Assembly (NCBI RefSeq): GCF_000219625.1
Contig: NC_018209.1
Span: 248,001-312,000 of the forward strand
Source: Zymoseptoria tritici IPO323
Taxonomy: Eukaryota > Ascomycota > Dothideomycetes > Mycosphaerellales > Mycosphaerellaceae
DNA: 64,000 bases
Direction of reading: 5' to 3'
Within the stretch, counting starts at the first letter, position 1. Each line of letters starts with the position of its first letter. A model generated the notes under the pieces. That model was given only the letters and a program-made list of their open reading frames with translations. It was not told where the DNA came from and did no database searches. Shown here one piece after another: positions 2 to 54,527 of this stretch. The position numbers and the translations under genes are program-made.

Positions 2-430
2 TCTAGGTTTGTCAACCTCACAGCCTGTGGTGTGCTTATCAGCTGGATCTCCATCCTCATCAACCACCAGCGTTTGATTCTGGCCATGCGAAAGCAAGCA
101 ATACCGATGTCACTTCTACCATGGCACAACAAGTGGACGAAGGTCTCTACTCCAGCCGCATTGGCGATGTGCGTTGCTCTGCTCTTCACTTCTGGATACT
201 CTGTATTCACCCAGGGAAACTGGAGTGCTAGCAGCTTCGTAAGCAGCTACCTGGACATTGGACTGGTATTGGTAGCGTGCTTGATCTGGAAATTTGTGAA
301 GAAAACCAGCATCGTACGTTTGGATGAGATACCCTTGAAAGAGGCTTTGGACGAGATTGCGAGAAATCCCGAGGAGCTGGAACCAGAGAAGAAGGGCTGG
401 GTGAAGGTGGTTGGGTGTCTGTGGGATTAG
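2..430 (+). CDS. Amino-acid permease, C-terminal part (truncated by window edge)
   Basis: An open frame enters from the left edge and ends at TAG 428-430. It reads as the last two membrane helices and cytosolic tail of a fungal AAT-family (APC superfamily) amino-acid permease. Recognisable pieces are a segment like SWISILINHQR, then LPWHNKWTKVSTPAA, a helix around SYLDIGLVLVACLIWKFVKK, and the family-typical tail KTSIVRLDEIPLKEALDEI. These proteins are proton-coupled plasma-membrane importers of about 520-560 residues, so roughly three quarters lies outside the window. The bases ctag just before the frame could be an intron acceptor, so position 2 may be close to an exon start. The substrate cannot be told from the tail. 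Family assignment is firm; the 5' structure is unknown. Confidence 0.85.
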   Translation, partial: SRFVNLTACGVLISWISILINHQRLILAMRKQAIPMSLLPWHNKWTKVSTPAALAMCVALLFTSGYSVFTQGNWSASSFVSSYLDIGLVLVACLIWKFVKKTSIVRLDEIPLKEALDEIARNPEELEPEKKGWVKVVGCLWD

Positions 431-2225: not shown

Positions 2226-3599
2226 GTCGATTATGTCGGAGCATCACCTGGCTGCCATGGTCTCTGGCCAAGCATAGAAGGAGATATAGCTGTCAGCAAC
2301 TTTGAATGCTCACGAACCATACCTTCTCGCGTGTCTCAAGTCTCCAAGGAAGAGTGATGGCAATTACATTGTCGTCCGAGCTCTCGACGACGACAGGGGC
2401 GTCCTCTGCCTCGAGAAGCCGCGCAGTTGTGCAGCTTGCCAATCGTGAGAACCGACTCACTCCGCCTGTACAAAGAGCAGCACAAGTGCATCTCCCTTCT
2501 CCGCTCTCCTCCGCAGCACCACTTGTGATCTCGATCACCCCATGCTTCGGAGCTGTGTTTCCACTTGAGCTCTCTGCCGGTTCAGACTATTATTGCACGT
2601 GAAACGTCCCTCGGATGTCGATGGGTGAGACACCGCCAGAGCGGGCTGGATCGGACTCTAGCGCTGGAGAGGATGTGGGTGTCCTCCTCAATATCCAGCT
2701 CCATGATCAGCGACGAGAGGTGTGAGAAGTCATGTCGAGAAGAGAATGCACAACCAAAAGAACTTGGAGCTATCGTGAATACTAACCAAGTCACTGCAAA
2801 CGGCGATCTAGGCCAAAAAGATGAGAAGAAGACGTTCGTAGAACGCCCGAAGAGCAAAAGAACGCCTCCGAAGAGACATGAACAACCGACTTGGCCACGG
2901 CGACTGAAAACAACCCCCTTCGATATGGACACGGTCCCACATGCGCCGCATCGAGGTCGGCTGGTCGGAGAATGTCTCACCGCGGCTGGTTGAACACCCG
3001 TGGTGCCGTACTCCTTCATTGTCGATGATCCGTCGTGGGACCCCTTGCGAAATCGAGCTGTCGGCCGCTGTCTTTGGACATTGAGACACCACTCTGCTCT
3101 TCCCGACTCTCGCCGGGACGAACCTCGTCGGGGCCAATCTCGTATCGGCCAAGTCTGCGACGTCTAACTGCCGTGGGACTCTTGCCTCAGCTCCTCTTGC
3201 CCTACTTCTTGGGTGCGAGATTTTCCCTCAAAGCCGGGAGCTTCTGGACGGTCCATCACTACGCAAGGATGGTGGGAAGGAACGGTTTTGAAGGCTGGGA
3301 GCCGGTCAGTGGTGGCTAGAGGTCCATACTCTGGACCTCTTGGGCGGCTTCATCACGTTGTGGAGCCTGAGCCTGAGCGGTGGCGGTTACGATGGGGAGG
3401 CCTGGGAGTGGTGTTGTGACCTGGCGGGTTGTGTCGATTAGATTGCCTGACGATCTTTGTATTCCGCCCTTTGTCTGTGCCTTCCCGCGATCGTTGCGCT
3501 TGAATCTGGGGAATTCCCTACCAGGCTGGAGAAGAAGTCATCAGTATCTTGAACTCCATTCTCTTCTTCCTTCGTGTGCTCCAGCGACACCCCACCCGG
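2226..3599. other. Gene-poor stretch, nothing recognised
   Basis: Several frames of 80-145 codons overlap on opposite strands with no recognisable domain, signal peptide or consistent splice signals. I see no gene here that I can support. Confidence 0.45.
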
Positions 3600-4636: not shown

Positions 4637-6271
4637 TCACACGGCCTTCATTACCTTCCACCCTCCGTGAGAGATTCTTGCCGCAATCAGCAAGCAGCCC
4701 GCGGCGACTGTCAACAGACCGCCAAACAGCCAGACATATCGATAGTCACTGGCATGCAAGATGGCCCCTGATATTGGCGCTCCCACCAAAAATCCAATCG
4801 ACATGATCGCCAAGCCCATCCCAATTCTGATGCCAATCACTCCTCGATCTTTCGTAATGGCCACAAAGATGGTCGGCGGAAGACTAACGAAAGTCCCCGA
4901 CACAAAGCCGTATAGCACGCAGATGACTATCACAGAAGCGATGCTGTGAGTGGCAATCAGACAGATGCATAATACACCTGCTGCGAACACGCAGGGTATG
5001 ACCACATTGAATGGGCCCACACGATCGGCGATGATACTTGGAATGACACGACCGAACGCGCTGGCAGCGTTGAGAATGGCGAGGAGGTAGAAGGCGAGGT
5101 CTGCTTTTGCCAGACCAGTGTCGATGGCGTATGACTGGACGTAGAAGAAGGGCGTGTATAGACCCTATTCGACAGGCGGTACGATCAGCAGAGACTCGGA
5201 CACGATGAAGCCTCGATCAGGAGCTAGCGAGGCGTGCTGAAAGCAAGCTCAAGAATCATGCTGCCCTTTGGTCTTACTCACGAGGAATCCAACAAAAGTT
5301 GCGAGGGAGAAAAGCACAAAAGGCGGCTCGCGAAATGCGGAGAGGTCGATGATTTTGCGCTGTCCAGCAGGGAGCACTCGGACTTTGAGAACCAAGTTGG
5401 AGATGGCAAGCGTGGCGAGCATAATAAAGCCAAGGACGCGAGTGGTCCAAGGGAATCCAATGGTTGGCAGAAGACGATGGAACACAATCGGATATATGAC
5501 CCCACCGATAGAGGATCCAGCAGCAGCGAGACCTTGGGCAGTGGACATGCGTGTAGAGAAGTAGGTGCTCAGAATGGCGACACTAGGGGTGAACATGCAG
5601 CCTGTGCCGAGGCCGATACACAAGCCTTGCGAGAGGAAGACTTGCCAGTATGTGGTGGACAAGGAGAGCATCATTTGGCCGAAGACGACGAGGAAGGATC
5701 CCGTGAGGACGAGGGAGCGGACGTAACCGGCGTCGTAGATGGGGCCTGTAAAGATACCGCAAAGCATGAGGAGCGTGCCTTGGAGGGATCCGATCCAGGA
5801 GATGGTGGATGGGGATTCTTTCGAGAGAAGGCCAGTTTCGTAGTACGTCTGGTACGACTAGATCAGAAGGGCAGAAGGGTCAGCGGTTCGAACTCAGGGT
5901 ATGATCGCAGACTAAGACCTGCTGGCGGAGCCCGAGAGACAATTTCGCACGACTACAGGCCTTCGACCCTTCGGGTTCCTTACACCGAAAGTGTTCACAA
6001 CGCCCCATGTGTTCACAATGAGCATGAAGGAGGACAGAACCTGAAGCCATGCGGTGAGGCCGCCGTTCGGAACGAGGGAGATATCGTTGACGGAGGGTTT
6101 GGCGAAGGCGGTCTTGGAAAGTTCGCCCTCATCGTGTTGAGAGGGGCTGAGATCGCTGGGTGTCTGTTCCGGAGACTCCTCATGGTGTTCTTGCCGATCG
6201 TGGTTCTGTCCATCGCTTGTGCCGATATCCTTGGTCTCGATCTCGACATGGAAGGAAGAGTGGCGAGACAT
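4637..6271 (-). CDS. MFS transporter, monocarboxylate-transporter (MCT/SLC16) type
   Basis: Three exons, complement of 5984-6271, 5282-5857 and 4637-5164, give 463 residues. Introns use GTAAGG..CTAG and GTGAGT..ATAG and are 126 and 117 bp. An acidic cytosolic N-tail of about 75 residues is followed by the first helix (GGLTAWLQVLSSFMLIVNTWG) and the MCT-typical FGSYQTYYE at the first exon junction. Next come repeated Gly-rich helices (GLCIGLGTGCMFTPSVAIL, GLAAAGSSIGGVIYPI). After the second junction GLYTPFFYVQSYAID opens the C-terminal half, with GRVIPSIIADRVGPFNV between helices. Length and pattern match fungal MCT-like permeases at the plasma or vacuolar membrane; the substrate cannot be read. 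It is 563 bp downstream of, and on the same strand as, the UstYa-like gene, so it is the natural candidate exporter for that locus (inference). Confidence 0.88.
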
Positions 6272-6834: not shown

Positions 6835-7914
6835 TCAAAAGAATTCCTCCTCCGGATGCAGGACAGCTTCTGGAGGTGGAAGAACCCTGACGTCTGACTG
6901 CTTGAGCGGTATTGCGTGGTCCTTCCACCAAGATATCACAGCGTTATGATCATGGCACTTGTGCTCCGTCTCAAAGTCCGGCATTGTCCTGCCCTCTTCA
7001 TCCCGCCACAAAAAGGGTGTGACTCCAACGTCGGCAAGACAGAGAAGACGTTCTCGCAGAGCGTCTACACAGTGGTCTGGCGAGTCTCAGCTTCCCGTTT
7101 CCTCGCGGAGGCTTCGTGGGCTCGGACTTACTGAGGTGAGCCTTCATGAACGATTCATCCATTTCTTCACCGGCCTGAGTACTCTTTTCGGCGTAATACT
7201 CATGGTTGTAGTACAGGCTTTTCCGGATCGAATTCTGCCACGGGTAAGTCAAGGCACCGACAGGGTAGCGAGCAAGGTGTAACTCACAAGACAGTGAAGT
7301 TGATGGATCATCTCTGGCACAACTGGGTATCCTTCTGTTCCGTGCGTCTCCTCAGGAATCCAGTAATGGCTGTTGTTCAAGCCGAAAGTGGGACCCAAAG
7401 ATTTGGGCAGGATGAAGTGCGGAACTGTCGATCGAAGGTCAGCCGGGTGAAGACCCCACGGGACTGTGAATACCAACGCCATATTCCAAAATCCGCCCAT
7501 GCTCGCTCGACCTTCTCGCTTGGTGGAGCAGTGTATTCACTGTTCAAATGGAAGTGGAACCGGTCAAACCTCCTCAGAGAAAGGTCGCGATTGACCTTGC
7601 CGCCATATACTGCATCAACTAGATCTCATCAGTGGATGGCGACTTCTATCAGCATGAAAGACTGCGGCCTTACCTTGGTTGCGGAAGTCCAAAGAGTAGT
7701 GGTTTCGAGCGTAGTCCATCATTGTGAAAAGAGTCGTCAAGTTTGACACCACCAGTGCAGCAATGAACCAACGGAACTTCCAAATGTGGGCTGGCCATGT
7801 TTGGTGCTCGGATGCCACCTCATCCTTGGCCTCTACATTTCCAAGGAGCGTCATGGCGTCTTCTTTCTGGTCTGCTCGTAGCATGTTCGTGCTTTTCAGT
7901 GCTTTGAAAGCCAT
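6835..7914 (-). CDS. UstYa-like (DUF3328) oxidase-family protein
   Basis: Five exons, complement of 7674-7914, 7460-7618, 7288-7424, 7132-7234 and 6835-7076, give 293 residues. Introns are 55, 35, 53 and 55 bp. The N-terminus is cytosolic, with one membrane helix at about residues 49-65 (WFIAALVVSNLTTLFTMM), as in the family. Both diagnostic HxxHC motifs are present: IHQLHC just before intron 3, and HLNHCVDALRE, whose Asn codon is rebuilt by splicing of intron 4. Between them is SIRKSLYYNHEYY, also typical. UstYa-type proteins oxidatively cyclise or hydroxylate ribosomal peptides (ustiloxin, asperipin, victorin) and act in some other clusters. The gene diverges from the Kex2-repeat precursor with 886 bp between starts. 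The 35-bp intron 7425-7459 is the weakest call; a frameshift there is the alternative. Confidence 0.85.
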
Positions 7915-8419
7915 CGCGTGTCGGATTTACCAGAAATTGGTTGTTGTCGTAGGATGTCGACGACAGCACCGTACTCGGAAGTGACTTCAAACGCCGTGCC
8001 GAGATATGGGAGATAATGACGTTGCATCGTGCGTCCGTATTGCAAAGGGTACCAGCTTTGCAGGCTTAAGGTCACCCCGAGCAGGATGGGTCATCAAGCT
8101 CGGACGACATCTGAGAGGTGTCGATTCCGATGCGCTCACCTGACAGTCCTATCGGTGTCGGTGTGTGTAGTTCTAGTTCCTATCCCTGCGACCGACCTCT
8201 GCCGACTTTGACCCGGCCTTGGGCAACACACACTTTCGACGGCCGCTCCAACCTTGTACATGGGGCCATCCAGTTGTTATCAACGAGGTGAACCGAGTCG
8301 TGAGCTCAAAGGTCTCCCATTGGCGCGATAATTGTTGAAGGTGCCATGAAGAAACCCGGGAGCTCGAACAAGGGACAGCTATCTCGACGGCACTACTTCT
8401 CGTATCGCCAGGTATGCGC

Positions 8420-8630
8420 GAGCTCTCACGACATTCTTCCTCGACAGTACATCATGTCCATTCCAGATCGAGACGGTATGCCAGAGCTAGGCCTGTCATT
8501 GGGACACACTCATCGACGGCAAACCACGGCAAATCACTTGATCGAAATCATCTGCCGAAGCTAGGCCTGTCATCACGACATTCCTGCTCGACGGCGCATC
8601 ACGTCCGTTCCAGATCGAGACGCTGGACAG
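8420..8630. repeat. Three imperfect tandem copies (about 64-75 bp) upstream of the repeat-peptide gene
   Basis: Copies start near 8420, 8484 and 8557. Copies 2 and 3 share agctaggcctgtcat at their start; copies 1 and 3 share tcacgacattc and ttccagatcgagacg exactly, 147 bp apart. All three carry a c-tcgac-g core and an agatcga-like block. They lie 170-380 bp before the ATG at 8801, on the far side of the TATA-like site, so they are in the shared upstream region of the divergent UstYa-like gene. Confidence 0.7.
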
Positions 8631-8686
8631 AAGCGGTGTAGATAGCACGTTCTTCACCAGCACCTACAAGTGATAGCTCGAGAGAG

Positions 8687-8694
8687 CATATAAC
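8687..8694 (+). promoter_or_regulatory. TATA-like element for the repeat-peptide gene
   Basis: The sequence gagagCATATAACactc lies 107 bp before the ATG at 8801, followed by a C/A-rich leader (aatcatcaatcatcattcac). Spacing suits transcription starting near 8720. This is a motif reading only. Confidence 0.4.
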
Positions 8695-8800
8695 ACTCTT
8701 CAAGGTCCCTCATTCTTCCGGCGTCCAAGTCAACCACTCATTCCACCTTGCAGATCACATCAATCATCAATCATCATTCACCGTCGAACCCTGCTACCAC

Positions 8801-9791
8801 ATGGCGATGATGCGAGCAGCCCTCATATCCCTACTGCTGACCGCAGCGGTCGGTAGCCCACTGCCAGCCAACCCGGCGACGGTGACGAGCTCCGGCAAGG
8901 ACATCAACAACTATCCGAAGGCGAATATTTTCGAAAGTGAGCTCAACCGCTTGAAGTCATGCTCGAGCGTCGGCCTTTGCTGATCCCATGAGCCAAAACA
9001 GAGGAGAAGAGAGACGTCGCTCGTGAAGCTGCCCGTGATGTGGGCTCGGTGACGAGCTCCGGCAAGGAGATCAACAACTATCAGCATGCGCGTATTTTCG
9101 AAGGTAAGCTCAACTGCTTGAAGTCATGCTCGAGCGTCGGCCTTTGCTGATCCCATGAGCCAAAACAGAGGAGAAGAGAGACGTCGCTCGTGAAGCTGCC
9201 CGTGATGTGGGCTCGGTGACGAGCTCCGGCAAGGAGATCAACAACTATCAGCATGCGCGTATTTTCGAAGGTAAGCTCAACTGCTTGAAGTCATTCTCGA
9301 ACGTCGGCCTTCGCTGATCATATGAGACAAAGCAGAAGAGAAGAGAGACGTCGCACGTGAAGCTGCCCGCGATGAGTCCGAAAAGAGAGACATCTCGACC
9401 TCCCGTCTCCCCTTCGAATACCCGATCGTTCGCTTCTTCAAGTCCGCCGGCAAGTCGATCGATATTGCAATGAAAGAGAACCTTGCTGACGTTCCGATTA
9501 GATGTCGAGGCCAAGAGAGACGAGACGGAGTCGAAGGCCGGACCCGGATACGCCGACCGTGTGCGCTTCTTCAAGTCCGCAGGTACACTTCCATCTCCCA
9601 CCAGCAAGAGAAAGAACAAAGCTGACCATTCCCAATTCCAGATGTCGAGGAGGCAAAGAGAGACGAGACCGAGTCGAAAGTCGGACCTGGATATCCGATC
9701 GTGCGCTTCTTCAAGTCCGCCGGTAAGTTGCCCTGTTAGCCTCTGCGAGAGCACCACGTTGACGTTCCGTCCAGATGTCGAGGCCGAATAG
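8801..9791 (+). CDS. Kex2-processed repeat protein, candidate dikaritin-type RiPP precursor
   Basis: Seven exons (8801-8936, 9002-9103, 9169-9270, 9336-9449, 9502-9582, 9642-9722, 9775-9791) give 210 residues. All six introns are phase 1. Residues 1-18 are a signal peptide (MRAALISLLLTAAVGS). Lys-Arg sites at 48-49, 82-83, 116-117, 130-131, 156-157 and 184-185 are each followed by Asp, as expected for Kex2/KexB cutting in the Golgi. Each repeat carries one Tyr segment: YPKANIF (Y38), YQHARIF (Y72, Y106), YPIVRFF (Y142, Y196) and YADRVRFF (Y168); five fit Y-x3-[RN]-[IF]-F. Spacers are acidic (DETESK, DVGSVTSSGKEINN). This matches ustiloxin/asperipin-type precursors, and a UstYa-like gene lies alongside. 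Intron 4 (9450-9501) is GC-AG. The product is inferred; a secreted peptide signal or effector without cross-links is the alternative. Confidence 0.85.
8881..9375 (+). repeat. Tandem 167-bp exon-plus-intron units inside the precursor gene
   Basis: Units start at 8881, 9048 and 9215, exactly 167 bp apart. Each contains the Tyr-segment end of one exon, a 65-bp intron, and the KR start of the next exon. Units 2 and 3 are almost identical through 9300, intron included, so the last copy is recent. The first unit differs at the Tyr segment (YPKANIF instead of YQHARIF) and in its donor (gtgagc instead of gtaagc). Confidence 0.9.
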
Positions 9792-12013: not shown

Positions 12014-14001
12014 CTAGTAAGAAGGAGCATTGAGGAAGAGACCCATGGTGATGCCACCGATCAGACCGGCGATCGGGATGGTCATGACCCAGGAGAAGAA
12101 GAGGAGACCGACTCGTTGCCAGTTGACGGCGCGGAAGGTACCGTTGCAGAGACCGACTCCGACCTGAGAATGTTGTTAGCCGTGTACCACGTACGAGAGT
12201 GCGTCGAGGTCTTACGGTGGCGCCAGTTATACACATGGAGGTGGAAACAGGGAGTTTGTATTGCGAGAAGATGAGGATAGTGATGGCGGCACCCATTTCC
12301 ATGGAGGAGCCACGAGATGGAGAGTGGTAGGTGATCTTGTTACCCATGACTATTGACAATGTTAGCAGATTGCTCGAAAGATCATCCAGGATGCGGTCAA
12401 CTCACCTCGCATGATGTTGTAACCATATGTGCAGAAACCGAAACAGATGGTCAAAGCAATGACAGCAATCTGCCAAAGCGGCACAGGCTCCTTGCTCTTG
12501 ACGGTATCACCAGTCGACCAGGCAGCGTACATGGCTGCCCACACACCGACCGCATTACCAACATCGTTGGCGCCGTGAGCGAACGAAGCAGTGCAAGCGG
12601 TGATGATCTGGACGAACGAGTACAGGTACTCGGTCTCGTTGGAGTACTTGGCGGCGTTGTTGTAGACACGGTCCATGCGACGACCCTCGGGAGTGCCCAT
12701 GACACCGACCTGCGCCTTGTGGATGTCAAAGTTGACTCCGTACAGAGCCATGACGACGATCTGAGCGGGAACACGCTTGACGACAGCGATGAGGTTGTGC
12801 TTCTCGTAGATGGAGCCGGCGCCGATTTGGTTGCGGTGGAGGTGGCGCATGGCCCAGCCGAGAGGACCTCTGTTCTTGCGGAGGTCGGCGTGGTGCATCT
12901 CGCGGGCGCGAGCCATTTGGACCTTGTAGTCGGCTTGGGTGCCGGTGGAGAGGGCGGACTCGTCGGAGAGAGCCATGGGGTTGCGGCCGGCGGAGATGAC
13001 CGTCTCGTGCTTGCCGTTGGGTGCGATGACCTCGTCGGAGCCCTCGGATTTGGTGTCGGTGATCTCGGCGGTCTCCTCACCACCGTGCTGCATGACGGCG
13101 TAGTTGGGAACACGAGCGAACTCGGCATCGGCGGGAGCGGGGCGGCTGAAGAGAAGAGGTCCCTTGAACAGGTCGTACCACTTGAGGGTGTAGTCCTTCT
13201 TGATGACACGAGCGTGAACGTATGGCACGAAGAAGAGGGCGGCGAGGAGAGCGAGCGCCATGCCGGTTCCGACGGAAACACCGGCGATCCAGTAGCCAGG
13301 CTTCTCGGTCAGACCGAGACGTGGGGAACCCTTGTAAATGATGGACAAGCAGCAAATGGTTCCGGCGACGAGGAAGAAGAACGGAGAGGTCCAGACAGCC
13401 CATGGGACGGGGTTGGAGCGGAGGTGAACGGTCAACTTGATGAGGAGGAAGATGGCAGCTCCGAAGAGAGCGGATCCAACGGGAGCGATGATCAGACCCG
13501 AGAAGATGGCTCCAAGACCAGATCCGTTGTTCCATCCCCATTGCACCTTGTCGGCTCCCACAGCGGCAACACCAACACCAGCGATGGCGGAAACGAGGGA
13601 GTAGGTCGAGGAAACGTGAGCGGAGTGGCGCGTGCACCACATGACCCAGATGGATGCACCGGCGGCGGCGCATGTGAAGGCGAGGAGTTGAACGGGAGCG
13701 TTGCCATTGAAGGCGGCGATTGGGATGATTCCGTTCTTGATGGTGGAGGCGGTACGGGCGCCGACGGTGAGAGCGCCGGTCAATTCGAAGATGAGACAGA
13801 GGACCATTGCCTGTTGGTAGGTGACGGAGCGGGAGGACACCGAAGTGGCCCATGCGTTGGCGACATCGTCTGAGTGAGGTGTTAGTGATGATGAGGAGGG
13901 ATATGCCAGTCATTCCACGTACTAGCACCGTTGTTGTAGGCCTCGAGCAACGCAAAGAACGTTCCAATGGCGAACACGTAGGTGTACTCGGTCAAGACCA
14001 T
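12014..14001 (-). CDS. PiT-family phosphate permease (PHO89/PHO-4 type)
   Basis: Four exons, complement of 13923-14001, 12406-13869, 12216-12349 and 12014-12163, give 608 residues; introns are 52-56 bp. The two inverted PHO4 domains are clear. The N-terminal signature NNGANDVANAWATSV is split by intron 1 after GA. The C-terminal copy reads CTASFAHGANDVGNAVGVW. A long hydrophilic loop (about residues 260-370, rich in Glu/Ser/Asp) lies between them, and the last helices read GLLFFSWVMTIPIAGLIGG. The family imports inorganic phosphate with sodium (PHO89) or cation coupling (Neurospora PHO-4) at the plasma membrane under phosphate shortage. Length and domain order are complete. Promoter phosphate-response sites were not searched in detail. 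Confidence 0.95.
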
Positions 14002-48924: not shown

Positions 48925-49728
48925 TCAGCTTCCAGCCGTCTGTAACGATGTCGAGGTTGAAACCGCTGTGTCGTTGGTGGGATTCATGTACCTCATCAAT
49001 ATCTCCAGGGTCCACAGTCCTGCCAGGAGGACCAGATAGAACATGAAGTACTCGAACATTGACCGTGGGCCACGCTCAGGATGTCTCCACCAATCTGGGC
49101 GTCCTGACCAGCGAGCTTTGCATAGCTTGGCGATGTCGGCCATGAGAACCACCGCAGCGAGGTTTGCTAAGCCATAGATAAAAGTAATCAATGGTGCAGC
49201 TTGGGGTGACTTGTGAGGAGTAATTACTCGAAAGATCCAGGCCATCCACAAAGTGACAGCGCTGACCATGAAACATGTGTTGAGTTTCCATAAGATTGGG
49301 ACGCTCTCGCGATCAGGCTCGTTGTCCTTATATGATTCTTGTAACTCAGTTGGGCGGCAGCAGTGCCGTTTGGTGTACCACCGAGGCATGCATGTGCGGC
49401 AGCAGATGTGTCCGCATGCGATAAGGAGATAATCCTTGCTTTTTTTCCTGCAGACAATACAATCGTCCGAGTTCATTTCCCTCAGGCATAATTCCCGTGG
49501 CGTGCGAGCAGCTGAGAGTGACGGAGGCGATGTTTGGTCTCTTGACGGTGGTAGTTGGACAGCTGTCGATGAGCGCGACACCAGTTCCCAGACCCCGATA
49601 GTTTGAAAGAGGAGGAAAGTCGAGAGTGGAGGCAAATACGCTGCTGCCAGTAGACCCAATGCCATGTGCGCGGTCGTGGAGGCCATGATCTGATCAAGAA
49701 TGCAGGACATGAATTGAATGCCGGCCAT
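48925..49728 (-). CDS. Membrane RING-finger-like protein 1 of 4 (degenerate RING)
   Basis: Single exon, 267 residues from ATG 49728, chosen because MAGIQFMSCILDQIMASTTAHM lines up position by position with its paralogue at 51449-52330; an upstream ATG at 49773 is also in frame. Helices lie about 22-45 (GLLAAAYLPPLSTFLLFQTIGV) and in three segments after the RING. The RING region reads CIVCRKKSKDYLLIACGHIC then CRTCMPRWYTKRHCCRPTE: the first six ligands are present, but the final C-P-x-C pair is replaced by HCCRPTE, so the second zinc site is doubtful. Paralogues suggest an endomembrane E3 ubiquitin ligase; this copy may be inactive. It converges on the 4CL-like gene with 28 bp between stops. 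Confidence 0.72.
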   Translation of the reverse strand: MAGIQFMSCILDQIMASTTAHMALGLLAAAYLPPLSTFLLFQTIGVWELVSRSSTAVQLPPSRDQTSPPSLSAARTPRELCLREMNSDDCIVCRKKSKDYLLIACGHICCRTCMPRWYTKRHCCRPTELQESYKDNEPDRESVPILWKLNTCFMVSAVTLWMAWIFRVITPHKSPQAAPLITFIYGLANLAAVVLMADIAKLCKARWSGRPDWWRHPERGPRSMFEYFMFYLVLLAGLWTLEILMRYMNPTNDTAVSTSTSLQTAGS

Positions 49729-50132
49729 GAAGTATCTTGATGGTGCGCGAGGGTCGGTCTGGAACAGAAGCATCGTGGCTGTTCAATCGGCTTCGCCGGA
49801 AGGGTAGAGAGAATTTCGGTTGTTTGTTCTGCCGTGCGCAAGCAAATTTAAGATAGCGATCGAATGGGATGAAGGGCGATGATCCCATGCAGACGGATAT
49901 GTTCGCGCTAGTGCCGTTTGTCCTTCGCTTGGACGTCTTTCATCAGAGCAGCGTCTTCCATTCAAGCTGCCGTCATAGCAATTTGTGCTGCAGATGAGAG
50001 TGATCAAGGTGTGAGGGTTGTCGCGCAGTGTGCCATTCGCAGGTTGACTTCTCGATCAGTGCTTGTGCCAAGCTGTTCATGCGCGGTACCGTGATCAAAC
50101 AGTGCTAGAGACCTTTGGCAGAGATGAAGTGC

Positions 50133-50852
50133 CTAGTGGAGAAGCTCGTACTGCAGCTGACCGATCAAAAGCAGCACTGAAAACCCGCGAACACCCACCA
50201 GGATTGGAGCTGCGTGTCCCGTCAGTAGAGAGGGATGCCTCCACCAACCCGAGCCGTGGGAGTGCCAGAGTTTCCAGAATATGGCCAGCTCGTACATTGT
50301 GACCAGGAGATTCAACGTTTGCATTACACCGCAATAGACCAGATCCCAGAATCCGAAGCCCTTCCATGATTGGTGAGTCACTAGGAGGACGGGGAACATC
50401 AGCGAGGCAGTAAGGTTGCTGACCGACACACATACATAAATCTTCGTAAGTGTGGGCACCCTGTGCTCATCTCGAAGCCTGTACGAGTACACCACGCGTG
50501 AGCACAGTGGACAGTAGTTCTTCCCGAACGCGATCCATGAGTAGATGCACTCACGGCAGTAGACATGCCCGCACGAGAGGACAACAGGATCTTCGAAGCT
50601 GTCCTTGCAATGAATGCACTCTTCTGGCTTGAATATCCGGAAAGGCGATGGTAAGGTATCGAGGTATGCTCGGATCGATGGAAGTGCTGGGATCTCGGAT
50701 GACAGGCGGGACACTAATTCGTAGACGCCGAGAAATTGGAGGACGAAGAAGAAGGGGAGTTTCGGGAGAAACATGGCCGCCAGGGCGCCGATGATCGCAT
50801 GCGCCGTGCTAGAAGAGGCGAGTTGACCGAGTGTGGAGCGAGTGAAGGCCAT
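50133..50852 (-). CDS. Membrane RING-finger protein 2 of 4 (complete C3HC4)
   Basis: Single exon, 239 residues from ATG 50852 (MAFTRSTLGQLASSSTAHAI). A hairpin of hydrophobic segments (IIGALAAMFLPKLPFFFVLQ) precedes VYELVSRLS, shared by all four genes. The RING at about 78-120 is complete: CIHCKDSFEDPVVLSCGHVY, CRECIYSWIAFGKNYCPLCS. After it come two or three further membrane segments and the family WWRHP block (HGSGWWRHPSLLTG). It fits a membrane-anchored E3 ubiquitin ligase whose RING faces the cytosol (inferred). Of the four neighbours this is the only one with a textbook CPxC end, so it is the best candidate for the ancestral active copy. Confidence 0.78.
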   Translation of the reverse strand: MAFTRSTLGQLASSSTAHAIIGALAAMFLPKLPFFFVLQFLGVYELVSRLSSEIPALPSIRAYLDTLPSPFRIFKPEECIHCKDSFEDPVVLSCGHVYCRECIYSWIAFGKNYCPLCSRVVYSYRLRDEHRVPTLTKIYVCVSVSNLTASLMFPVLLVTHQSWKGFGFWDLVYCGVMQTLNLLVTMYELAIFWKLWHSHGSGWWRHPSLLTGHAAPILVGVRGFSVLLLIGQLQYELLH

Positions 50853-51448
50853 TGCGTGGGAAATATGGCGATGATGATGCTCATAAGCTGTTGGAAAGGC
50901 TATGAGTGTGATTCTCTGAATTGTGTTGTCTGAAGAAACCAACTAAACTGAAGGAAAGGACGGCCTAATAAGGCTTACCCATGTGCTTGCTAGCACGATT
51001 GCTGTCTTCTTTGACAGCTAAGACTTGCATGAGAAGAAGGTGTGAGAAGAGTCTGTGACCAGCATATTACTGTGCAATGTTGATGTACTGTTGAAGGTTG
51101 AGGTTGTCTCAGATGGAGAACTTCGTCGAATGGGATGATATTTGAGAGTGAAGTGCGCAAGCGAAGTTTAATGACGCATTTTGAAAGTGAAGTGAAGTGA
51201 AGGAGCAAAAAATTGGAAGGCACCAACCTAGCGTGCTCTGTCACGCATCTTACAAAATACTTTCTGCACCATTCCCGAAGCCATATCAAAGCCGCAAAGA
51301 TGGCAGCATTTGGGCGAAAAGCCATGCATTCTTCACGTTCCTCTGCCTCGGCCACCTCTCTCTCATCCATGCAGCGCAGTAACTGCACTATCCAGAATCG
51401 TGTCTGTCCTGCTCGAAGCGTGGTGTACCGAGTACATGGTGATTGCCT

Positions 51449-52330
51449 TCAGTGTGGGCGCATCAATGCCTGCGATGAAGCTGTGCAAGACTCCGCTTTG
51501 TAGGCTGAGGCTCTCATCTGCAGCATTTCCTTGAGTAGCCACAGCCCGACAGGTACCGCAGAGTACAGAATGAAGACGGCGTTGGGCATTCTCTTTGCAT
51601 GATCGAAACCTTTCCACCACCCAGGGCCTTTTAGCCACCGAAGTCGGCACAGTCTGACGAGCCATTCCGAGAATATTAGCACACCCCGCAGCATGAGAAC
51701 TCCGGCATACCAGACTGACAGTAGGATGATGCAGAGCTGCGGTTCTCCGCGTATATCGATTGTTCCGTGTAAGGTTGTCGACTGGTGGAAATTGGTTGAC
51801 GCAGTCCCGAATGCAACGAGGTGCGCAATCCGGAGAGTGCAGATCATGCAGAACACCACACTGTTGACCATATGACATATCTTGACTTTCAGCATGAGCG
51901 GCATCTTCCTCTTGACTGCCTTCTTTCCCTGCAAGCCTTTCTTGAACAGTACGCGGAAGTCCAGCGGACAGGTGTTGTTGCCTTGGTCGAACCATCGATC
52001 GATACAGGCACGGCAAAAGATGTGTCCACACGCGAGGATGACTGGATCTTGGCAACCGTCCTTGCAGATAGTGCAGTCATCTTGCACAAGGAGGCGGGCG
52101 GCGGAAGGTAGGGCGTTAATGAACGAGTCTCGCGTTGGCAGCGTTGGCGTTGTTTGCCGCGCTGTGGTCGACGTGCGCGATACCAGCTCCCACACCGCAA
52201 TGGTCTGGAAGAGGAACAAAGAAGCGATCACAGGCAGGTAATTGGCTGCCAGTATTGCTAGGAGCATGTGCGCAGTGGTGGATGTGATGATCTGGTAGAA
52301 GTTGTGGAAGCCGCAATGGATAGAGGCCAT
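51449..52330 (-). CDS. Membrane RING-finger protein 3 of 4 (final ligand Asp)
   Basis: Single exon, 293 residues from ATG 52330 (MASIHCGFHNFYQIITSTTAHM); the frame stays open a further 99 codons upstream, but the paralogues begin here. After a hydrophobic stretch and AVWELVSRTSTTA comes CTICKDGCQDPVILACGHIF, CRACIDRWFDQGNNTCPLDF: seven normal RING ligands, with Asp in place of the last Cys (CPLD). Basic residues follow (LFKKGLQGKKAVKRKMP), then several membrane segments and GPGWWKGFDHAKR. Asp as the last zinc ligand is known in RBX1, so the domain may still fold. An endomembrane E3 ligase is likely by family. Confidence 0.75.
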   Translation of the reverse strand: MASIHCGFHNFYQIITSTTAHMLLAILAANYLPVIASLFLFQTIAVWELVSRTSTTARQTTPTLPTRDSFINALPSAARLLVQDDCTICKDGCQDPVILACGHIFCRACIDRWFDQGNNTCPLDFRVLFKKGLQGKKAVKRKMPLMLKVKICHMVNSVVFCMICTLRIAHLVAFGTASTNFHQSTTLHGTIDIRGEPQLCIILLSVWYAGVLMLRGVLIFSEWLVRLCRLRWLKGPGWWKGFDHAKRMPNAVFILYSAVPVGLWLLKEMLQMRASAYKAESCTASSQALMRPH

Positions 52331-52750
52331 GTCGCGCCGTGGTGCGCGCCGTGGTGGTTGCGCGGTGAATGCGTGGTGAATGATGTGTTCTGTAAGCGGT
52401 GCGACCAGTCGATGATGGATTTGAAGAACCACGAGCAAAGGGCCAGGTTGTGTCTGCGTGTGCTTTGCGCGAGTGGGGTCTGAGTGCGGGATGATAATGA
52501 AGTGAAGCGCCATAGTTTCGGTCGGGTCGAGTTTTGCGCTAGCACTGTTTGCTTGCTGCCAGCAGTTTCTTGCAACAAGGTTAGAATGAGAAGTTGATGC
52601 AAACTTCCGTCTTATCAGCCTCTGCACGTACAGGTGCGTTGAAAGCTCTTGCGCCGACTTTGTATGGCGTTCAGCGTCTTCCCGCTTGCATCTCTCGGTG
52701 TAACATGCTGAAAAGTGGCTTTTCCTCGCTCGCGCTGTGAAGACATATGC

Positions 52751-53563
52751 TCAGGCGTGCCAAAGAACTCCCGCTTGCACGAAAGACTCCAGTAGCCACA
52801 TTGCAAGCATGATGAGAAACCAGAGTATGTAGTAGAGAGCGGCTTGTGCCTCATCCACGTGAAGGTGTCTCCACCACCCTGGACCGATAGCTCGCATTTC
52901 GCGATGAATCTCGAATGCGAGGACAGTGAGTAGTAAGGAGAGGCACAGCGCAATAGCAAAACAGGAGCCAGGGACGAGCAGACCCAGCAGCGCACCGGTG
53001 GCGTTGCGCACTTTGAGTTGCCAACCGGTGTAAATCGCCAGGTTGCGCCAGACCTCCATCTTTGCCATGAATTCGTGGGCCAGGAAGCGAGCGAGGACAA
53101 ATGTCCACGACCATGCTACAGTTGAAGTGGCGAGCACGGCGCATCTTGCAGCTTTGTAGAAGGTGGAGACGCTTCCTTCCGAGACGCTACGCTTGAACAG
53201 CTGGCGGAAGTCAAGCGGGCAAGTGTTCCTCCCCGACTCAAACCAGGACTCGATGCATGCGCGGCAATAGACATGACCGCATGGCAGGATGACCGGCCCT
53301 TCGAAGTCGTCCCGGCAGATGGCGCAGATGTCGGGTACGGCGAGTCGAGCGGCGGAAGGTAGAGCGGTGATGATCACATCTCTGGTGGGCAGTGTTTGGT
53401 CTTCCGTTGACAGACGAGAGACAAGGTCCCAGATTCCGGCGATCTCGAGGACGAAGAGGAAAGTCAGCTTGGACAGGTAAACAGCTGCCAAAGATCCGTA
53501 AAGCACGAGGGCGACAGTGGAGGTGGCGACCTGGCCGAAGATCTGGGTGCTGGTAGAAGGCAT
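52751..53563 (-). CDS. Membrane RING-finger protein 4 of 4 (final ligand Asp)
   Basis: Single exon, 270 residues from ATG 53563 (MPSTSTQIFGQVATSTVALV). It has the same plan as its three neighbours: a hydrophobic pair, IWDLVSRLSTEDQTLPTRDV, a RING with CAICRDDFEGPVILPCGHVY and CRACIESWFESGRNTCPLDF, then LFKRSVSEGSV, further membrane segments, and GPGWWRHLHVDEA before the last helix. As in copy 3 the last zinc ligand is Asp. The spacing LPTRD..IxALPSAARL is shared with copy 3, so these two are sister copies. Role by family: membrane E3 ubiquitin ligase. Confidence 0.77.
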   Translation of the reverse strand: MPSTSTQIFGQVATSTVALVLYGSLAAVYLSKLTFLFVLEIAGIWDLVSRLSTEDQTLPTRDVIITALPSAARLAVPDICAICRDDFEGPVILPCGHVYCRACIESWFESGRNTCPLDFRQLFKRSVSEGSVSTFYKAARCAVLATSTVAWSWTFVLARFLAHEFMAKMEVWRNLAIYTGWQLKVRNATGALLGLLVPGSCFAIALCLSLLLTVLAFEIHREMRAIGPGWWRHLHVDEAQAALYYILWFLIMLAMWLLESFVQAGVLWHA

Positions 53564-54527
53564 GGTGCATATGGGTGGAGCTTGAGAGCACTTGGATTCC
53601 GAAAAATCTTCTTTAGCTGAAAGATGGAGTGCCGGTGGAGACAAAAGTAAATTTCCATTCACGTATTGACACAGCAATCCCGTCTGGATCAAGCGTCTCA
53701 CGCACCGTGCAGTCTCTCTAGTGAGTGACAGCAGCAAGGTGAGACGCACAACAAAGCTTTTGACTTGCGCTTCGCCGCTCACTCGCCCGCCAGTCCCGCT
53801 ATTGATCAAAAGTAGTAGGAAGCTTGTGAAGCATGCGATACTGGCCAGAGTAGTCGAGAATGACCTCGCGCCTTTCACTGATTCCAGCATCGGGGATGAT
53901 CTCGCAGCGTCTGTAGATCCCTCAGCCAGCGGTATGGTCGTCATTGGGCACAGATTTTGCCATGCCGGATGCTCTGGGTATGCTCTTGCTTATGGGTCAT
54001 GGTGCCCGAATGATCGAATCTAACACTGTTGTGATCGTCAAAGCACGCGGTTTCTATCTTACCTTTCCCTGCCCGTCGTACAGACCCTGCCTGCCACCGA
54101 GTGAGAGAGACATGTTGCCCGCTTAGCAACACCGAGCGAAACAGGCATGAAAGCCGCCTTAGTCTGATCGGCGCTTGTTCGAGCCAAGGGGGCATGGAAA
54201 AAGTTTGCAAAGTACATCGCAGGGGACGTTCAGCGATCTTCTTGGTGGCGGGAGGATTGTAGCAGATGGCGGCGATGCGCCAGAGGTTCAAGACTGGAGT
54301 ATAGGAAGAAAGAGGAGTGACAGACGACGAGAATGGTCGTCGTCGGCCATGATCAATAGTACGCAATGATGAATTCTGCCGCAGTATGCCCTCGCCACAA
54401 CGACGACTCACTTGGAAGCCTACATCCATCCACATTCATCGCAATAACCACGAGAGTCGCAGCGTCCACTCTCCGGATTCTTCTCGACCTTGCATACGTT
54501 ACGCTCATCTACACCAAGGTCGTAGCC
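53564..54527. other. Divergent promoter region between RING copy 4 and the PPPDE gene
   Basis: About 960 bp. Frames here are open (the RING frame extends to 53944 and the PPPDE frame starts at 54366), but neither adds a recognisable domain. Nothing else seen. Confidence 0.4.

Follow-up and report, generated by a model that had tools for sequence, protein, structure and literature searches.

Positions 8801-9791 (+) of the window (the whole 64,000-nt stretch that was analyzed, G000:C10:248001-312000) probably encode the precursor of a small RiPP locus of the dikaritin type; this product would be cut by Kex2, trimmed, and cross-linked by a UstYa-family enzyme. The evidence lies in seven exons that encode Tyr-containing segments set between six KR-D sites, in an adjoining UstYa-family gene, and in searches of the genome (39,686,251 bases on 21 contigs). 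What we infer for this locus comprises splicing in the cell, cleavage, trimming, cyclization, the positions of cross-links, secretion, and biological role.

Structure of the Precursor Gene

The in-frame join of seven predicted exons yields 210 residues and a stop; this spliced translation, which agrees with direct repeats in the DNA, reproduces the preliminary description of a 210-residue protein with six predicted introns and six KR dipeptides, each followed by D. Exon 1 (8801-8936, +) encodes a signal-like N-terminus with the hydrophobic stretch ALISLLLTAAV and the first A-type core (A1, YPKANIF, 8912-8932, +); the signal peptide is judged by hydropathy alone, which peaks at 2.53 over 11 residues and does not exceed 0.79 in any window that starts beyond residue 25. 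Exon 2 (9002-9103, +; 102 nt, phase 1-1) carries core A2, YQHARIF, at 9079-9099, and exon 3 (9169-9270, +; 102 nt), identical to it at 102/102 bases, carries core A3, again YQHARIF, at 9246-9266. Exon 4 (9336-9449, +; 114 nt, phase 1-1) joins a Tyr-less piece to core B1 (YPIVRFF, 9419-9439); exons 5 (9502-9582, +) and 6 (9642-9722, +), each 81 nt and phase 1-1, encode cores B2 (YADRVRFF, 9549-9572) and B3 (YPIVRFF, 9692-9712), and exon 7 (9775-9791, +) supplies the last part of the C-terminal tail (DVEAE) together with the stop.

The six predicted introns (65, 65, 65, 52, 59, and 52 nt) are all in phase 1, and the internal exons (102, 102, 114, 81, and 81 nt) are multiples of three in five cases out of five. 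Five introns have GT-AG borders; intron 4 (9450-9501, +; 52 nt) is GC-AG, with a non-canonical donor in a register that matches the other B repeats. Five of the six contain a CTRAY branch-like motif close to the acceptor; the intron at 9723-9774 has none. Each intron comes just after a core; in five cases the next KR is a few codons away, and in the sixth the C-terminal tail follows. The KR that closes the Tyr-less piece has no intron ahead of it.

No homologue of the precursor was found at E ≤ 10 among 7996 scored database proteins of 115-367 aa, other Z. tritici strains included, nor a second copy in the genome, where all five search matches fall within the gene itself. Could the locus then be decaying or mis-spliced, and unexpressed? 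The GC-AG intron and the lack of a homologue in that size range would fit, but the idea is hardly credible given that the seven exons are open in frame and the five internal ones multiples of three, that B1 and B3 differ only synonymously from Tyr on while their introns drift, and that the partner UstYa-family gene is intact both here and in a second strain. The one Tyr-less piece, the GC donor in intron 4, and the missing precursor homologue also count against the dikaritin reading.

Predicted Kex2 Sites, Peptide Pieces, and Cores

All six KR-D sites are written with the same codons, AAGAGAGAC. Six or more KRD occur in 0 of 20,000 shuffles of the precursor after residue 19 (six or more KR in 34 of 20,000), so their count exceeds what composition would give. 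The sites split the precursor into seven predicted Kex2 pieces: an N-terminal one ending in NNYPKANIFEKEKR; DVAREAARDVGSVTSSGKEINNYQHARIFEEEKR, present twice; the Tyr-less DVAREAARDESEKR; and DISTSRLPFEYPIVRFFKSADVEAKR, DETESKAGPGYADRVRFFKSADVEEAKR, and DETESKVGPGYPIVRFFKSADVEAE. The preliminary description had listed one Tyr segment per repeat (YPKANIF, YQHARIF twice, YPIVRFF twice, and YADRVRFF); these six stand as listed, but only four are distinct and one of the seven pieces lacks Tyr. They belong to two repeat types, A and B, with three copies each: the A cores are YPKANIF and YQHARIF, the B cores YPIVRFF and YADRVRFF, and all six segments conform to Y-x(3,4)-[NR]-[IF]-F. In the DNA, the repeats appear as units of 167 nt, in three copies, and B-type units of 38 nt, also in three copies.

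A secreted repeat protein, an effector or a wall protein, might instead act whole, its KR sites being incidental to tandem duplication. KR-D may indeed be copied along with a repeat, as the same codons at all six sites would allow, but KR-D delimits the Tyr-less piece too, as it does both of the unlike repeat types, and the adjoining UstYa-family gene and the KR arrays in seven of 20 other UstYa regions favor processing; we regard an intact, functional repeat protein as very unlikely.

The Adjacent UstYa-Family Gene

The nearest gene found on the upstream side of the precursor is a UstYa-family (PF11807/DUF3328) gene at 6835-7914 (-), with exons 7914-7674, 7618-7478, 7424-7288, 7234-7132, and 7076-6835. 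This five-exon gene is intact and lies 886 bp from the precursor on the opposite strand, in divergent orientation. Once spliced, it matches PF11807 with 125 bits (E 4.5e-36, profile positions 59-220), and its protein has a hydrophobic N-terminal stretch and the motifs HQLHC and NHC. A 287-aa protein of Z. tritici ST99CH_1A5 is 99% identical to it, which supports the splicing; the start of exon 2 was set from that protein. (Two proteins of the window are 99% and 100% identical to ST99CH_1A5 proteins.) A damaged gene with a frame change was considered and rejected: a 53-nt GT-AG intron accounts for the shift, and the other-strain protein is spliced in the same way. Relatives are few, seven at E ≤ 0.001 among 514 candidates with the ST99CH_1A5 copy included; Fulvia fulva CLAFUR0_08698 is 55% identical, and no solved structure matches at E ≤ 1. 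Across the genome, PF11807 has 61 exon-level matches, one of them on contig 10 (window 6916-7365). The region between the two genes (7915-8800; 886 bp), which contains direct repeats at 8426-8475 and 8573-8622 (86%), is probably their shared promoter.

The UstYa family is needed for the cyclization of ustiloxin, asperipin, and phomopsin. That such a gene adjoins the precursor, which the preliminary description did not include, strengthens its dikaritin-like reading; the layout it proposed is supported by the KR-D repeats, the Tyr segments, and this gene at the level of the class, not of the chemistry.

Other Neighbors

An MFS transporter gene follows at 4637-6271 (-), with exons 6271-5984, 5857-5282, and 5164-4637 and PF07690 matches in two of them; our model has 463 aa and the ST99CH_1A5 copy 571 aa, so its ends are uncertain. 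As a cluster marker it was set aside: 825 proteins match it at E ≤ 1e-100 among 7997 scored, and its presence says little. With 825 such relatives against seven for the UstYa-family protein, it is probably a general neighbor; it could export the product but is probably not specific to the locus. On the other side lie an alpha/beta-hydrolase gene (PF07859, also PF10340; 10184-11394, -), whose membership is uncertain and exon ends approximate, and a Pfam match to a PHO4 phosphate transporter (12362-13909). Among the frames and families tested, the surroundings of the precursor yielded no gene for a peptidase, a tyrosinase, or another tailoring enzyme. Of the 18 exon-level PF00264 (tyrosinase) matches in the genome, taken from the best candidates, none is on contig 10; one of three S41 peptidase matches is, about 379 kb further on, and the single match to the kexin-type P-domain is on contig 5.

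Far from this locus, four adjacent long open frames at window 48925-53989 (-) show, by eye, RING-finger-like Cys/His motifs and hydrophobic stretches; they look like a tandem gene family.

KR Repeat Arrays at Other UstYa Regions

Is a repeat precursor beside a UstYa-family gene a single case in this genome? In the repeat scan, seven of 20 UstYa regions show arrays with three or more similar KR contexts: L015, L023, L026, L028, L029, L031, and L033. The 20 regions are a non-random sample, mostly the better-scoring UstYa matches, and include three pairs of adjoining or nearby regions; a further 13, among them the flank upstream of the window, fall outside the scan. Window 12001-64000, a small control that represents the rest of one window, has no array. 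The stricter scan misses our own precursor on the coding strand, because the introns put stops into the context, and gives an antisense reading only; a looser scan recovers three of its sites.

The arrays vary in sequence and length. L015 has four KR sites with GEWDYEPTPHYYPPAADSANIPVEKR at 7044-7278 (+; ~G000:C3:1704743); L023 has seven KR-D sites with DPEAQRGGIMDYIKR at 3079-3349 (-; ~G000:C6:722078); L026 has 11 KR sites with SISPSVESYDGASVEEKR at 7113-7695 (+; ~G000:C1:5652412); L028 has seven KR-D sites with DEAYDYPRDSGYSFITKPEEETEQKVKAKR at 8025-8559 (+; ~G000:C2:1922724); and L029 has 10 KR sites and both Tyr and Trp in YEGDVEWKDKTKR at 5907-6258 (-; ~G000:C7:1320406). The KR-D array of L031 (2092-2515, -; ~G000:C13:833791) alternates the Trp segments DSEVWF and DSEVWL in a repeat that lacks Tyr, and is a case for asking whether UstYa enzymes use Trp. 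L033 (2861-3197, -; ~G000:C7:826860-827196) consists of 168-nt units with the repeat DPAFAPISVGED..SPYYGDRQNYKR, in each of which a single phase-1 intron seems to follow KR directly; L015, L023, L026, L028, L029, L031, and the YVIP array described below seem intronless, to judge from their short, regular spacing. For L028, L031, and L033, the stricter scan also reads these repeats in another frame or on the other strand. Two-copy pairs, which were not counted, came from the looser scan at L014, L021, L024, L027, and window 2040/2184; in the UstYa region L027, EKRAPIQGTGPDCK is present in two copies at 248-393 (-), a possible short repeat precursor.

These arrays bear on the question of whether the precursor simply releases linear, unmodified secreted peptides, pheromone-like or signaling, with the UstYa-family gene beside it by chance or acting elsewhere. 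In the available text of PMC7329392, a DUF3328 gene lies no more than 15 genes away for 1758 of the 7878 Kex2 repeat proteins, only 22% of them, and the yeast mating factor is linear; in addition, with 61 exon-level UstYa matches in the genome, some neighborhoods are expected by chance. But the gene here is divergent and the nearest found on its side of the precursor, arrays occur in seven of 20 UstYa regions and not in the small control of window 12001-64000, and the same text places putative pheromone genes near DUF3328 in only three cases (PMC7329392). Linear peptides are thus an unlikely outcome, and a precursor of cross-linked peptides is preferred.

Divergence of the Repeats

A1 and A2 differ in five of 19 codons (seven bases), all amino-acid changing and confined to a stretch that begins four codons ahead of Tyr and ends two past the last Phe; the introns that follow them are identical at 63 of 65 positions. 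A Fisher test gives p = 0.0027 for a 36-nt segment that was picked after the differences were seen, and the plain comparison of exon tail with intron gives p = 0.08; the pattern around the core may hint at selection and goes no further. The introns that follow the identical exons 2 and 3 differ at seven of 65 positions (Fisher p = 0.001), and the identity of these exons could be due to purifying selection or gene conversion. From Tyr on, B1 and B3 differ at two of 31 bases, both synonymous, and the introns that follow agree at 31 of 52 positions. B2 is one residue longer than either and shows amino-acid changes relative to both. All of these repeat comparisons rest on small counts.

Since the introns are in phase 1 and the internal exons are multiples of three, A and B look like duplicated exon modules of common origin. 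Five symmetric internal exons mean that exon duplication or in-frame exon skipping could alter the mixture of cyclic peptides, and five amino-acid-changing codons between A1 and A2, set against introns identical at 63 of 65 positions, suggest that core residues diversify under selection. Taken together, this would make a peptide-cassette gene with one core per exon, symmetric phase-1 internal exons, and cores diversifying under selection, a doubtful proposal that, if true, would give a plant pathogen a combinatorial source of RiPPs.

A Model for Maturation

By analogy with characterized members, on which the published descriptions in PMC9233826 and PMC7329392, in the parts available, provide a model in which the peptide is secreted, cut by Kex2, trimmed, and cross-linked through side chains by UstYa proteins, the precursor would enter the secretory pathway and be cleaved by Kex2 after each KR. 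Further peptidases would then shorten the pieces to Y-x(3,4)-[NR]-[IF]-F cores that run from Tyr to Phe, and the membrane-anchored UstYa-family oxidase would cross-link these through Tyr or another side chain to form rings; as for asperipin-2a, no tyrosinase would take part. With its two core types, the precursor would yield a small mixture, at most four products. The calculated [M+H]+ values of the linear cores are 852.461 for YPKANIF, 934.489 for YQHARIF, 941.524 for YPIVRFF, and 1073.553 for YADRVRFF, each falling by 2.016 per cross-link, although the true ends of the peptides may extend further. These may act as secreted bioactive peptides toward the plant or microbes or, less likely, in sexual development.

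If the cores are cyclized, Y-x(3,4)-[NR]-[IF]-F would widen the known substrates of the UstYa family. A precursor with cores found nowhere else in the search, together with a candidate enzyme partner, is added to the few characterized UstYa pathways.

Comparison With Known Systems

The working definition of a dikaritin locus in PMC9632046, as far as the available text goes, requires a DUF3328 gene near a precursor that has a signal peptide and kexin-separated repeats; the present locus would qualify, with the signal peptide judged by hydropathy only. The DUF3328 gene lies 886 bp away (PF11807, 125 bits), repeats of at least 10 residues (34-residue A-type and B-type) are separated by six KR, and Tyr is present in six of seven pieces. 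In the available text of PMC7329392, DUF3328 counts are highest at the position next to the precursor, and Tyr occurs in 65.6% of DUF3328-linked repeats versus 38.2% of those without DUF3328. About a third of DUF3328-linked repeats in that text therefore lack Tyr, and the cross-link may involve a different residue.

How new is the precursor? The preliminary description called it new, and its cores are indeed without a match among the 7996 scored database proteins, but a Zymoseptoria dikaritin-type precursor is already known and arrays occur in seven of 20 UstYa regions; the precursor is thus one of a set and, to judge from its sequence, a new candidate member of an established class of fungal natural products. 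We recognized no paper on this locus in the literature available to us, including PMC6339444, PMC5006380, and PMC9453070; the supplementary tables of PMC7329392 and PMC8939313 may list the gene. Zymoseptoria is assigned the core YVIP in the available text of PMC7329392. The EDYVIP codon pattern has 10 genome matches, one on C2, nine on C4, and none on C10; the nine lie at G000:C4:1706288-1706688 with 48-bp spacing, and C4:1682555-1691926 holds UstYa, tyrosinase, and weak S41 matches, a phomopsin-like setting. Identity with the known Zymoseptoria YVIP precursor was ruled out, the YVIP array being on contig 4: the present locus is distinct from it and has fewer components. According to the available part of PMC8939313, six of the seven genes in a ustiloxin-like cluster of Z. 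tritici, not matched to one of the loci here, rise during infection. Together with the present precursor, the arrays in seven of 20 UstYa regions suggest that the ribosomal cyclic peptides of this wheat pathogen are not limited to those of the one named YVIP precursor.

Ustiloxin, phomopsin, and the Zymoseptoria YVIP system resemble the present locus in KR-separated repeats, Tyr in the core, and UstYa-family genes. Unlike in ustiloxin and phomopsin, whose subgroup is defined by an EDYxI core and a cluster tyrosinase, EDYxI is absent from the present cores and none of the 18 tyrosinase matches (best candidates) falls on contig 10. Ile stands third in YPIV, as in YAIG and YVIP, and in no other segment; therefore, a ustiloxin-type Tyr-Ile link cannot be general here.

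Asperipin-2a of Aspergillus flavus is alike in its repeat precursor with Kex2 sites and its single UstYa-family gene, and to our knowledge its cluster has no tyrosinase. The present locus shows the same minimal set, with one of 61 PF11807 matches and none of 18 tyrosinase matches (best candidates) on contig 10. The asperipin-2a core, FYYTGY, has three Tyr, whereas each core here has one Tyr and one or two Phe, the core types are two, and there is an intron per repeat. A pathway with a single DUF3328 gene is also how asperipin-2a figures in the available text of PMC7329392. Epichloecyclins, as the accessible part of PMC7317419 describes them, likewise arise as several cyclic peptides from the imperfect repeats of one precursor, GigA, with a DUF3328 gene; GigA differs in its 27-residue repeats and the kexin gene in its cluster, whereas the sole P-domain match here is on contig 5. 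Venturia inaequalis, another plant-pathogenic fungus, has nine dikaritin clusters defined by a DUF3328 gene and a precursor (PMC9632046, in the text available), a likeness by description rather than by sequence. Set beside these systems, our precursor is distinctive: each core has its own exon, two core types occur together, and A1 and A2 differ only at amino-acid-changing codons.
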